DNA of 64,000 nucleotides from Planctomycetota bacterium (GTDB lineage Bacteria; Planctomycetota; Phycisphaerae; Phycisphaerales; UBA1924): assembly GCA_033763975.1 (NCBI GenBank), contig JANRJM010000008.1, positions 1 to 64,000 on the forward strand, given 5' to 3'. Every line of letters begins with the position of its first letter. Position 1 is the stretch's first letter. Both the position numbers and the translations under genes were made by a program. The notes beneath the pieces were generated by a model. That model searched no databases and was not told the origin of the DNA. It worked only from the letters and a program-made list of their open reading frames with translations. This document shows, in pieces, positions 39,411 through 56,349 of the stretch.

Positions 39411-39712
39411 GTCCCGACCCCTCGCCACGCGGCCTCCTGCCGCTGTTCTCTTCGACCGGGCCCCGCCCGATCCTCCACGCCGCACGCTGTGTTTTCGGCT
39501 CGTGCGCCCCGCCGCGCCGCGCCTGACGCGTGCGCAGGCAGCGCACGCCATTCGGCCGCGACAAGCAGGTTCGACACGCTCCCATCGGTACGGTTCCCGG
39601 ACCGCCCGCCGCCCCCGGGCGTTGACCCCGCGCCCCGCCCCGGTAGCATCCGTACCGCGCCCGTATCCTTCTGCCGCGTTTGCCCCGCTCGCCCCTCCCG
39701 CCCGGATACCCC
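39411..39712. other. Gene-free divergent region, about 300 nt
   Basis: No gene is supported between the small lipoprotein (minus) and the sugar isomerase-like gene (plus). It contains the putative promoter at 39622-39649 and otherwise G+C-rich sequence without clear structure. Confidence 0.55.
39622..39649 (+). promoter_or_regulatory. Putative promoter for the sugar isomerase-like gene
   Basis: TTGACC, 16-nt spacer, TAGCAT, about 64 nt before ATG 39713. Five of six bases fit the -35 consensus; the -10 is weaker. Confidence 0.35.
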
Positions 39713-40561
39713 ATGAAGCCAGCCTTCAGCACCGTCGCCCTCCCCGCCTGGACGCTCCCGCGCATCGCCGAGCGCGCCGACGCCTGGGGGTTCCTTGGCG
39801 TTGAGTTCCGCACCTTCGGGCACGGCTCCTCCGCCATCGCCGGCGACCCCGCCCTCACCTCGCCCGCCAAGGTCCGGTCGCTCTTCGCCAAGAGCGGCGT
39901 GCGCTTCGTCTCCCTCGCCACCTCCATCCGCTACGACGAGCCCATCACGCCCCCGCTGCTCGGGCAGCTCTTCGACACCGAACGCTCCGTCCGCGAGACC
40001 ACCGGCGCGGTCGACCTCGCCGTCCAACTCGAGTGCCCCCTCGTCCGCGTCTTCGCCTTCGAGGTCATCGGCAACGAGTCTCGCACCAACGCCCTCGGGC
40101 GCATCACCCGACGACTCGCCAAGGCCATCGACCACTGCGACAAGAGCGGCGTGCGCCTCGTGCTCGAGAACGGCGGCTCGTTCAACCGCGCCGCCGACCT
40201 CGCCGAGATCATCGACCTCGTCGACAGCCCGCTCCTCGGCGTCGCGTACAACCTCGCCGTCGGCGTCCGCGCGGGCGATGTTCCCGCCGACGCCGTCAAC
40301 GTCCTGGGCGACCGCCTCCTCACCGTCAAGGTGCGCGACTTCAAGGACGGCGTGCCCTGCGCCCTAGGCGAGGGCGACCTCGACTGCCGTCGCCACGTCG
40401 CCGACCTGGCCCGCGCCGGGTACACCGGCTGGCTCGTGCACGAGTACGACGGCGCCTGGTTCCCCGGCTCGCCCGATGCCGACGCCGTCCTCGCACGATC
40501 GGCCCGCACGCTCTTCGAGTGGGCGTCCCCCGCATCGCGCCCGGCGACGTCGGCGCGGTAA
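39713..40561 (+). CDS. Sugar phosphate isomerase/epimerase-like TIM-barrel protein
   Basis: 282-aa protein of the xylose isomerase-like TIM-barrel superfamily. Barrel strands and metal-ligand positions are visible: FSTVALPAWTLPRIAERADAW at the start, VRVFAFEVIGNES, RLVLENGGSFN (ligand Glu), LLGVAYNLAVG (the usual Asp/His position is altered), LLTVKVRDFKDG and WLVHEYDGAWFPG (ligand Glu). Such proteins isomerise or epimerise sugars or inositols with a divalent metal. ATG 39713 is the first start in good context. It is not in an operon. The specific substrate is unknown. Confidence 0.82.
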   Translation: MKPAFSTVALPAWTLPRIAERADAWGFLGVEFRTFGHGSSAIAGDPALTSPAKVRSLFAKSGVRFVSLATSIRYDEPITPPLLGQLFDTERSVRETTGAVDLAVQLECPLVRVFAFEVIGNESRTNALGRITRRLAKAIDHCDKSGVRLVLENGGSFNRAADLAEIIDLVDSPLLGVAYNLAVGVRAGDVPADAVNVLGDRLLTVKVRDFKDGVPCALGEGDLDCRRHVADLARAGYTGWLVHEYDGAWFPGSPDADAVLARSARTLFEWASPASRPATSAR

Positions 40562-40571
40562 CTCGCTCTTC

Positions 40572-40697
40572 GCCGCAACGCGGCTGGGTTGGTCCCACTC
40601 TTCGCCGCCACGCGGCGGTGTTTAGTAGCCGGGGGTCGCCGCGAAGCGGCACCCCCGGGTCACGCGCCGACCCCCAGTCGCACCGCGAAGCGGTGCG
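40572..40697. repeat. Array of four GC-rich hairpins with three-base loops
   Basis: Four inverted repeats sit in 126 nt between convergent genes: 40572-40584 (GCCGC-AAC-GCGGC), 40603-40617 (CGCCGC-CAC-GCGGCG), 40629-40658 (outer stem CCGGGGGT/ACCCCCGG around GCCGC-GAA-GCGGC) and 40679-40697 (CGCACCGC-GAA-GCGGTGCG). The first two share flanking CTCTTC. The last two contain GCGAAGC, known as an unusually stable DNA mini-hairpin. None has a T-run, so simple intrinsic termination is doubtful. Confidence 0.75.
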
Positions 40698-40706
40698 GGC
40701 ACCGCA

Positions 40707-41309
40707 TCACTCCGCCTGCTTCCCCACCACGAGCCGCTCGATCAGGCCCTGCACGTGCCCGCCGCGGGGGTCGGTGCCCTGGCCTTCGACACCCAGGGCC
40801 TCGAGCACGCCGTAGCCCAGCCCCACGTGGATGAGCGTCCACGCGATGAGCTCGGGCGAGAACGCCTTGAGGCTCTTGCGATCCTCCTGCGCCCGCTTCA
40901 GTTCCTTCGCGAGAAATCCGTGCAGGTTTTGAAAGTGATTCGTCACCGCCTTGCGGATCTCGGGGTCGTCCACCTCGGTGATCGCCTGCAGCAGCACCCG
41001 GTACGGCGCGCGCCCTTCCTCGCTCACCATCGGGTTCTCGGCCAGCACCCGGCGCAGCCGCTCCGCCGGGTCGGTCGCATCGCTCAGCCGCTGCTGCCAG
41101 TGCTTCAGCGTCTGCTTCGCCGTCCGTTCGATCAGCGCCACGTACAGGTCGCGCTTGCTCTTGAAATGGCGGTAGATGATCGGCTCGGTCACGCCCGCGG
41201 CCTTCGCCAGCTGCGCCGTCGTCGCGCGCGCGTACCCACGGTTCGCGAACAGGTCCGCCGCGCAGTCGAGCAACTGCTCGCGTCGTTTGTCCGCCGGCAA
41301 CCGTCCCAT
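40707..41309 (-). CDS. TetR/AcrR-family transcriptional regulator
   Basis: 200-aa one-component repressor. The N-terminal helix-turn-helix is classical: REQLLDCAADLFANRGYARAT, TAQLAKAAGVTEPIIYRHFKSKRDLYVALIER. The C-terminal helical domain (about 60-190) binds an unknown ligand. ATG 41309 begins the DNA-binding domain; the upstream in-frame extension is not needed. The 98 nt between this gene and yidD hold a small palindrome (CGTACG) that could be part of an operator. No obvious target transporter is adjacent. It faces the hairpin array. Confidence 0.88.
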   Translation of the reverse strand: MGRLPADKRREQLLDCAADLFANRGYARATTAQLAKAAGVTEPIIYRHFKSKRDLYVALIERTAKQTLKHWQQRLSDATDPAERLRRVLAENPMVSEEGRAPYRVLLQAITEVDDPEIRKAVTNHFQNLHGFLAKELKRAQEDRKSLKAFSPELIAWTLIHVGLGYGVLEALGVEGQGTDPRGGHVQGLIERLVVGKQAE

Positions 41310-42840: not shown

Positions 42841-43012
42841 TAAGGCGGAGGAGGCTACGCGCCCGTCGGTTTCACCAGGACATCGGCCACGGCAGGCCAC
42901 GCTTCTGTCGGGATGTTCGTGCGCGTACCGCCGCTTGCGCACCCCGCGCCTCGGGGAGTGTCCCCGGTCGGCGCGGGGGTTCGATCGAACCCCACGCAGA
43001 GAGGATCATGTC

Positions 43013-44905
43013 ATGAAGAAGACGGTCATGGGTCTGCTCGCACTCGTCTGTTGCGCCGGCTCCGCCAGCGCGCAGGTGCTGATCAGCCAGGTCTACGGCG
43101 GCGGCGGCAACACAGGCGCCCCGTTCAACCAGGACTTCGTCGAACTGCGCAACACCGCGTCGGTTCCGGTCACCGTCCCCGCCGGCGGCTGGTCGCTCCA
43201 GTACGCCTCGGCCGGCGGCAACTGGGCCAGCAGCTCGGCCACGCTGCTCGTCATCCCCGCGGGCACCGTGATCCCCGCCAACGGCTTCTTCCTCATCGGT
43301 GGCGCCACGGGCACCGCCGGCTCGCCCCTGCCCACCACGCCCGATCTCAATCCCTCCTCCGCCGGCAGCTTCAACATGAGCGGCACGGCCGGCAAGGTCG
43401 CCCTGGTCTCGATCGCCACCTCGCTGAACGTGAACGACTGCACCCGCCCCGAGATCATCAACTTCGTCACCTGGGGCAACCCCGGCAGCGTGCCCTCCTG
43501 CAACGACGGCTCGTACGCCCTGCTCCCTTCCGGCACCGGCGCCACGACCTCCATCGTCCGCCTCTCCGCGGAGCGCTGCCAGGAGACCGGCAGCGACGCC
43601 GCCGACTTCACGACCGCGGGCGTCGGCTCGGTCCCGATCTACAACTCGCAGTCTCCGGGCATCGCCTGCCCGACCTGCATCGACTGCAACGGCAACCAGG
43701 TCTGCGACAACGTCGAGATCGACGCCGCGGGCGGCTCCGGCGGCGTGGGCGGCACCCTCGACTGCAACTCGGACGGTCTGATCGACTCCTGCCAGATCGC
43801 CGGGAACCCCGCCCTCGACTGCGACGTCAATGGCACGCTCGACGCCTGCCAGATCGCCGCCAATCCCGCGCTCGACTGCGACAGCAGCGGCACGCTCGAC
43901 TCCTGCCAGATCGCCAGCACCCCCTACCTCGATTCCTGCAACAGCAACGGGCTGCTCGACTCCTGCGAGACCCCCGGCGCCGGCCAGGACTGCAACGCCA
44001 ACAACGTCCTCGACTGCTATGAAATCAAGACCGGCATCGCCACCGACGCCGACTTCAACGGCACGATCGATCAGTGCGAGGGCGGCTTCGCCCTCGAGAC
44101 CATCGAGAACGCCACCGTGCAGCCCACCGGCATCCGCGGCGGAGGCAACGGCAACAACTTCTGGAACATCGAGGGCTCGGGCCTGGGCAACTTCGCCTCG
44201 TACGGCGCCGTTCGCTTCGACCTCGCCCCGCTCTTCGCGCAGCTCGACGCCGCCTTCCCGGGCGGCTGGACCGTCAACCGCGTGTACTTCTACCTCCAGC
44301 AGGCCAACGCCGCCTTCACGTTCTCCAGCCTGAACGACTCGATGCAGCTCTACTACACCGACCTCGACGCGCTCGACATCACGGTGCAGAGCTCCGTCAA
44401 CCCCGCCCGCCTGTACGCCAACTTCGAGACCGACTGGACCGACCGTGACCTCGTCACGAACTACACCTTCACCCAGGACATCGGCACCGGCCCGGACGGC
44501 ATCGGCTCGGGCAAGATCGAGTCGTACCTCATGTTCAACAGCACCGCCATGAACAACAGCGCCATGCTCGCGGTCGGCGCCGAGGCCAACCAGGGCGACA
44601 CCACCCTGACCCTCCTGGTCAACACCAACGACGCCATCGCCGCCGCCACCTACGCCGGCCGCACCAACAACACCTGGCGCGGGCCCTCGCTCGTCGTCTT
44701 CGCCGAGTCGACCGGCGCGCCCTGCGACCCCGACTTCAACCAGGACGGCAACTCCGACCAGGACGACATCGCCTGCCTCGCGCAGGTCGTCGCGGGTGAT
44801 CCCACCTGCTCCTCGGTCGACCCCGACTTCAACCGCGACGGCAACGTCGATCAGGACGACATCGCGGCCCTCGAGCAGGTCGTCGCCGGCGCGCCCTGCC
44901 CGTAA
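43013..44905 (+). CDS. Secreted lamin-tail-domain protein with Cys/Asp repeats and GC-type dockerin module
   Basis: 630-aa exported protein; ATG 43013 with GAGAGG upstream. Signal peptide 1-21 (MGLLALVCCAGSASA). Residues ~22-210 form a lamin-tail-like beta domain (VLISQVYGGGGNTGAPFNQD, FVELRNTASVPV, GWSLQY). About 225-360 contain six or so calcium-loop-like repeats of about 22 residues with D-C-N/D-x-x-G-x-x-D-x-C and the spacer QIAxNPALD. About 365-560 is a further beta domain. The end is a dockerin-like pair, DPDFNQDGNSDQDD and DPDFNRDGNVDQDD, closing in GAPCP. Such modules are thought to mediate calcium-dependent protein attachment on the cell surface. The binding partner is not visible. 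A perfect terminator follows. Confidence 0.88.
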   Translation: MKKTVMGLLALVCCAGSASAQVLISQVYGGGGNTGAPFNQDFVELRNTASVPVTVPAGGWSLQYASAGGNWASSSATLLVIPAGTVIPANGFFLIGGATGTAGSPLPTTPDLNPSSAGSFNMSGTAGKVALVSIATSLNVNDCTRPEIINFVTWGNPGSVPSCNDGSYALLPSGTGATTSIVRLSAERCQETGSDAADFTTAGVGSVPIYNSQSPGIACPTCIDCNGNQVCDNVEIDAAGGSGGVGGTLDCNSDGLIDSCQIAGNPALDCDVNGTLDACQIAANPALDCDSSGTLDSCQIASTPYLDSCNSNGLLDSCETPGAGQDCNANNVLDCYEIKTGIATDADFNGTIDQCEGGFALETIENATVQPTGIRGGGNGNNFWNIEGSGLGNFASYGAVRFDLAPLFAQLDAAFPGGWTVNRVYFYLQQANAAFTFSSLNDSMQLYYTDLDALDITVQSSVNPARLYANFETDWTDRDLVTNYTFTQDIGTGPDGIGSGKIESYLMFNSTAMNNSAMLAVGAEANQGDTTLTLLVNTNDAIAAATYAGRTNNTWRGPSLVVFAESTGAPCDPDFNQDGNSDQDDIACLAQVVAGDPTCSSVDPDFNRDGNVDQDDIAALEQVVAGAPCP

Positions 44906-56304: not shown

Positions 56305-56349
56305 ATGCCGCTCGCCGCTCGCCGCTCGCCGCTCGCCGCTCGCCGCTGA
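56305..56349 (+). promoter_or_regulatory. RBS and ATG of a short leader frame that would become the metalloprotease start after repeat change
   Basis: TGAGGAG at 56292-56298 lies 6 nt before ATG 56305. In the present sequence this frame encodes 14 residues (MPLAARRSPLAARR) and stops at TGA 56347. Adding one 7-nt repeat unit, or removing two, would run it in frame into the metalloprotease gene with no stop in between. Confidence 0.6.
56311..56345 (+). repeat. Heptanucleotide tandem repeat (CTCGCCG x5)
   Basis: Five exact copies of CTCGCCG, with GCCG before and CT after, about 5.9 units in total. It sits between a good ribosome-binding site/ATG and the open frame of the metalloprotease gene, where a change of one unit shifts the frame. 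Confidence 0.9.

Follow-up and report, generated by a model that had tools for sequence, protein, structure and literature searches.

The locus and its hairpin array

The window, a stretch of 64,000 nt from a Planctomycetota genome, contains two convergent genes whose stop codons are separated by a compact cluster of hairpins. The following features are used below, where R1 is a covariance model of the repeat unit.

39680..40561, + strand: flanking gene, xylose-isomerase-like TIM barrel (PF01261)
40562..40706, no strand: putative inserted stretch of 145 nt between the two convergent genes (stop-to-stop gap; three congeners with the same gene order have 4, 0 and 0 nt)
40566..40584, + strand: CTCTTC plus hairpin, outside the conserved unit and the R1 match (same degenerate pattern as 40598-40616, exact)
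40600..40698, + strand: composite repeat unit, A-tag-core-B (R1, 99.5 bits, the best of 10 in the genome)
40603..40617, + strand: hairpin A, 6 bp with a 3-nt loop (stem scan; one pair turns from C-G to G-C in 3 of the 7 copies)
40625..40628, + strand: GTAG tag at the foot of the core hairpin (GTAG in 2, ATAG in 4 and GAAG in 1 of 7 copies)
40629..40658, + strand: core hairpin, 13 bp with one bulged C and the loop GAA
40679..40697, + strand: hairpin B, 8 bp with the loop GAA
40707..41351, - strand: flanking gene, TetR-type regulator (PF00440)

A scan of 40561-40706 for perfect stems (5 bp or longer, 3-nt loops) returns 40572-40584, 40603-40617, 40638-40650 and 40679-40697, and a fifth stem (40694-40706) overlaps the end of the last of these. 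The stem at 40638-40650 extends to the 13-bp core hairpin. Four such stems were never reproduced in 5000 dinucleotide shuffles of the same interval. In the window and 20 further stretches of 20 kb (464 kb of the genome in total), four of them fall within 135 nt at three places, the present array included. The four compact hairpins of the initial annotation are real. Of the two other places, C8:104545 shows no obvious repeat and C6:170425 is another hairpin in a tandem array. The CTCTTC that the annotation saw in two of the hairpins is likewise present. Since CTCTTC plus hairpin recurs 32 nt downstream, the hairpin at 40572-40584 is probably a duplicated hairpin A. The array is one three-part unit with a probable duplicate of hairpin A, an inserted copy of a dispersed repeat of about 100 nt, and the description of four like units does not hold.

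An Rfam search gave nothing above threshold and one weak sub-threshold match, which lies outside the array. Two further repeats in the window are a perfect 7-mer array (GCCGCTC x 5.9, 56307-56347) and a 57-nt tandem repeat (x 3.3, 43782-43970), which forms a Cys/Asp-rich repeated segment inside a + strand reading frame at 42935-44905.

A dispersed repeat family

A BLAST search of 40555-40715 against its own genome (3.27 Mb, 19 contigs) returns six further matches, each some 100 nt long and 73-83% identical (E from 1e-14 to 1e-21), as well as short partial copies. Hairpin A, the tag, the 13-bp core with one bulge, a spacer and hairpin B are common to all seven aligned full copies. R1, which was built from these seven with the window copy among them, recovers ten places in the genome (seven full and three weaker), and the window scores best. 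At 73-83% identity, the copies give no sign of recent activity here. By a crude codon-usage gene caller, all ten copies lie between called genes, and in five of them, including the window copy, hairpin B is within 21 nt of a stop codon. The gene arrangement at some copies is other than convergent.

Short motifs do not identify the family. The GCGAAGC-type core that was proposed as a search motif misses it: CCGCGAAGCGG has 16 genome matches and its reversed control has 29, so it was rejected as a marker. CTCTTCGCCGCNNNGCGGC, allowing up to two mismatches, was also discarded (45 matches against 29 for the control; the only exact matches are the window's own two). It is the complete unit of about 100 nt that recurs.

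Short tandem arrays with periods of 5-16 nt lie within 80 nt of the A side of seven of the ten units and of the B side of one, compared with 134 of 10,500 random anchors, which fall mostly in coding DNA. In the seven units with an A-side array, the periods run from 7 to 16. At loci L052, L053, L054, L055, L056 and L059, the arrays stop near hairpin A; they include CTCCACCA x 20.8 and AGAGTGGC x 17.5, and the repeated sequence differs at nearly every place. We rejected these arrays as part of the mechanism because they accompany the A side of only 2 of 25 units in relatives and none of 31 at the named transposase loci. The reading is weakened further by the fact that three of the ten units share a single locus on contig C1.

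Empty sites in relatives

The proteins encoded on either side of the array were sought on 12 loci, with the source genome included. The TIM barrel is present on all 12 and the TetR protein on four, one of them in the source genome itself. In all three congeners that have both flanking genes on the locus (G006, G002 and G005, of the same genus as the source), the site is empty: the convergent genes end with stop codons separated by 4, 0 and 0 nt, respectively, with no hairpins between them. Compared with the 145 nt found here, this spacing indicates that the window array is an insertion. Parallel deletions in the congeners are possible but less likely.

Transposase genes associated with the unit

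This genome has three matches to PF01797 (Y1 transposase). One of them, a gene on contig C1, is flanked by copies of the unit.

C1:51652-51767, + strand: unit copy flanking the transposase gene (R1)
C1:51775-52215, - strand: IS200/IS605-type HUH/Y1 transposase gene, 147 aa (PF01797)
C1:52229-52328, - strand: unit copy flanking the transposase gene on the other side (R1)
C1:52395-52486, - strand: further unit copy near the gene (R1)
C6:104309-104752, - strand: second IS200-like Y1 transposase gene (PF01797)

The two nearest copies on C1 form an inverted pair with hairpin B towards the gene, 8 and 14 nt away. Together with the six other full copies and the three empty sites, this arrangement supports the earlier suggestion of a mobile palindromic repeat family. 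We expected the partner to be a canonical RAYT, but the C1 protein scores as an IS200/IS605 transposase instead (NCBIfam NF033573, 57.7 bits, cut-off 55) and has no match to the RAYT model NF047646. A sequence search of the PDB gave the ISHp608 transposase as its best match, which is not significant (E = 0.09). There are no near-identical further copies of the gene in the genome, and the next homologue is about 41-42% identical.

The C6 gene has GTAG-tagged A-core-B units on both sides (C6:104153-104865, read by eye) whose sequence is unlike that of the C1-type unit, and a solo copy of this second unit occurs at C9:74562-74692 (78%). Because its flanking units differ and have a solo copy of their own, the two transposases are each paired with a distinct unit.

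The RAYT-type match in this genome is at another place, within the leuS reading frame (L049:334-3174, contig C5). An in-frame insert there scores 86.6 bits with NF047646 (cut-off 80, residues 353-483), with the Y1_Tnp match at C5:1613-1786. The insert precedes the editing-domain match. GC-rich hairpin repeats, themselves read through in frame, lie on both sides of it, and the whole is apparently a REPtron lodged inside an essential gene with the frame unbroken. The hairpin CCGCACNCCGTGCGG, upstream of this insert, occurs 10 times in the genome against once for the reversed control. Four copies stand in tandem, 39 nt apart, at C6:170419-170550 (L236:10419-10550), and the others are at six other places. 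This hairpin is probably the REP of the third, leuS, system.

All 20 aligned homologues of the C1 transposase keep HVH, WQ and Y---Q--HH unchanged, and the expression DH[IV]H, WQ, Y---Q--HH matches 75 of 80 homologues (the best 80 of 400). All 20 aligned proteins match NF033573, and 10 of them also match NF047646 (best E 1.6e-5). The available text of Quentin et al. 2018 (PMC6006769) gives HVH, WQ and Y---Q--HH as key motifs of TnpA subclass 1.2, and the motifs and length of the C1 protein fit this subclass.

Homologous loci in other bacteria

One scan of genome contigs yielded 400 confirmed transposase loci, and the best 80 of these 400 form the homologue set behind all the counts in this paragraph. 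Flanks were analysed for the 74 loci with at least 200 nt on both sides. Inverted similarity between the flanks exceeds the 99% level of 400 cross-locus controls at 38 of the 74, and direct similarity exceeds the same level at 15. An A-core-B detector, written after examples had been seen, fires upstream of 36 of the 74 genes, downstream of 31 and on both sides of 18, compared with 6 of 862 distant windows, which are mostly coding DNA. At the 49 loci that had not been inspected before, it fires upstream of 21, downstream of 21 and on at least one side of 30. The detector is weakly directional, given that the reversed pattern is found upstream of 21 and downstream of 16 of the 74 genes. We count against a link with the transposase the 25 of 74 loci at which this detector finds no A-core-B in the expected orientation on either side.

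The A-core-B order appears in 18 inspected loci, including Granulicella, Terriglobus, Haloferula, Fimbriiglobus, Verrucomicrobia and Armatimonadetes, where the feet include GTAG, ATAG, CCAG and TCAG. Homologous genes in Phycisphaerales, Verrucomicrobia, Acidobacteria and Armatimonadetes thus often have inverted A-core-B flanks. Orientation was counted for the R1 unit (E <= 1e-3) nearest to the gene within 700 nt. Hairpin B faces the gene on 21 of 24 gene sides in the named loci, with 3 contrary, and on 12 of 18 sides in a second set of relatives, with 6 contrary; the latter set overlaps with the named loci through G004 and probably G031.

Base pairing is preserved across these units. Their alignment holds 39 distinct units, drawn as 49 rows from 29 chosen sources. 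Of its cells, 97.6% are paired, against 39-50% with slid partners, and both partners have changed at 22 of the 26 pairs. The first figure leans upward because the alignment was fitted to the model. Across 61 genomes, R1 hits (E <= 1e-3) occur in 23 and the transposase homologue (E <= 1e-10) also in 23. Both are present in 17, units only in 6, the gene only in 6 and neither in 32 (Fisher p = 8e-6, not corrected for relatedness). The two groups of six single-sided genomes also weigh against the link.

Alternative explanations

The array could instead be a bidirectional terminator, or an mRNA 3'-end stabiliser, that is kept between convergent genes for its RNA structure, much like the transcription barrier considered at the outset. 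Its place between convergent stop codons fits this role, both of its strands are predicted to fold more stably than shuffled sequence (z = -3.64 and -2.45), and the nearness of hairpin B to a stop codon in half of the ten copies would also suit it. However, no T-run is conserved among the copies. The initial annotation's statement that the array lacks one is essentially right, with the exception of one weak site at 40602-40618 (tail TGTTTAGTAG), which is among the seven terminator-type sites found in 15 kb where 4.3 +/- 2.0 are expected. Beyond this weak tail, which the other copies do not keep, the array has no GC stem followed by a T-run as an intrinsic terminator would have. The same convergent genes also manage without hairpins in the congeners, some copies lie in other gene arrangements, and a role in transcription leaves the inverted copies around transposase genes unexplained. 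We consider this explanation unlikely, and any effect of the unit on transcription would be secondary.

A more closely related alternative is an ordinary IS200/IS605-like insertion sequence that has the units as its ends; the window copy would then be a decayed remnant of one, left by internal deletion, and not a unit that spreads on its own. Inverted units do abut the C1 gene on both sides at 8 and 14 nt, and its protein passes the IS200/IS605 cut-off. Yet only one pair of the seven full units flanks this gene; the other five are single, the genes called at their loci include no remnant of a transposase, and the second Y1 gene, at about 41-42% identity, is no copy of the first. The ends of IS200/IS605 elements are not known to be inverted repeats, which also counts against a decayed remnant. 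We regard this reading as quite improbable. Chance clustering of hairpins in GC-rich DNA draws on how common such stems are (1177 with at least 5 bp and 3-nt loops in 464 kb) and on the lack of enrichment of CCGCGAAGCGG alone. Its probability is negligible: no shuffle reproduces the array, homologous copies of about 100 nt exist, base pairs covary, and the copies and empty sites already refute it.

Proposed origin of the array

A repeat family, a conserved paired structure, empty sites and linkage to a transposase are all observed for this unit. With good confidence, we interpret the array as an inserted non-autonomous composite REP-like element that would have been moved by the C1 IS200/IS605-type transposase. 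The unit would fold in single-stranded DNA, probably on the lagging strand, where the transposase could bind the core hairpin with the tag as a guide. Its tyrosine would then cut beside the unit, which might be rejoined elsewhere, often just past the stop codon of a gene. The protein-binding array of the initial annotation would hold only in this sense, with the transposase as the likely ligand. The cut-and-rejoin scheme is modelled on TnpAREP proteins, which cut single-stranded REP DNA in a reaction in which GTAG plays a role, as described in the available text of PMC8266576. We found no target duplication or cut site at the unit and saw no movement. The proposed origin would also account for a type of GC-rich hairpin cluster that is readily mistaken for a terminator.

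Comparison with known systems

Like GTAG REPs and REPtrons, the unit carries a GTAG-type tag 5' of a palindrome, is scattered between genes and occurs as inverted copies on either side of a Y1 transposase gene. The ATAG of four of seven copies departs from the usual GT[AG]G. A REP is a single palindrome of 20-40 bp, whereas this unit has three hairpins in about 100 nt, of which the core alone would fit. REPtron partners belong to class 2 (Y---NP), and the C1 transposase has the class 1 motif Y---Q--HH. The abstract of PMC2817692 gives more than 100 REPs per genome, compared with about 10 unit copies here. Di Nocera et al. 2013 (PMC3733652) describe GTAG repeats from PVC bacteria, R. baltica and O. 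terrae among them, and the unit may belong to one of the families in that paper. A composite design in the same text is that of the P. putida and P. fluorescens 'TIRs', which consist of a REP and a stem-loop, are inverted around a Y1 transposase gene and are dispersed in hundreds of copies. The unit shares with them the combination of stem-loops and the inverted arrangement. The 'TIRs' differ in pairing a degenerate REP with one unrelated stem-loop (PMC3733652), and their transposases are assigned to subclass 2.5 in the text of PMC6006769.

Class 3 TnpAY1 proteins, as presented in that text, recall the present system in their occurrence in Planctomycetes and Acidobacteria and in gene-flanking hairpins that are found elsewhere in the genome too, but their motif is Y----Q and their foot CnGA, compared with Y---Q--HH and GTAG/ATAG here (PMC6006769). 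The likeness to IS200/IS605 elements consists of an HUH/Y1 transposase above the NCBIfam cut-off and hairpins near both gene ends. Unlike them, the flanking units are inverted with three hairpins each, and the gene lacks near-identical copies in the genome.

The transposase itself agrees with subclass 1.2 in the motifs DHVH, WQ and Y---Q--HH, a length of 147 aa against a listed median of 148 and a low copy number (PMC6006769). The accessible text of that study lists the subclass with 'REP: no', generally without IS200 end structures and in low copy number, mainly in Cyanobacteria and Bacteroidetes. In the present case, the gene has hairpin units on its flanks, and the hosts are PVC bacteria, Acidobacteria and Armatimonadetes. 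A literature search of open running text returned no account that pairs such hairpin units with transposases of subclass 1.2. We favor, with somewhat less assurance than the origin of the array, the view that subclass 1.2 is a REPtron class of its own. Its private three-hairpin unit (A, a tag ending in AG, core, B) would be inverted at the gene and would spread as solo copies in PVC bacteria, Acidobacteria and Armatimonadetes, and perhaps further. Because its orientation is mostly fixed, its stems covary and its empty sites are clean, the unit is a concrete candidate substrate for subclass 1.2 TnpA, for which the text of PMC6006769 gives no known DNA substrate. Unit and transposase together would be intermediate between IS200 insertion sequences and REP/RAYT systems.
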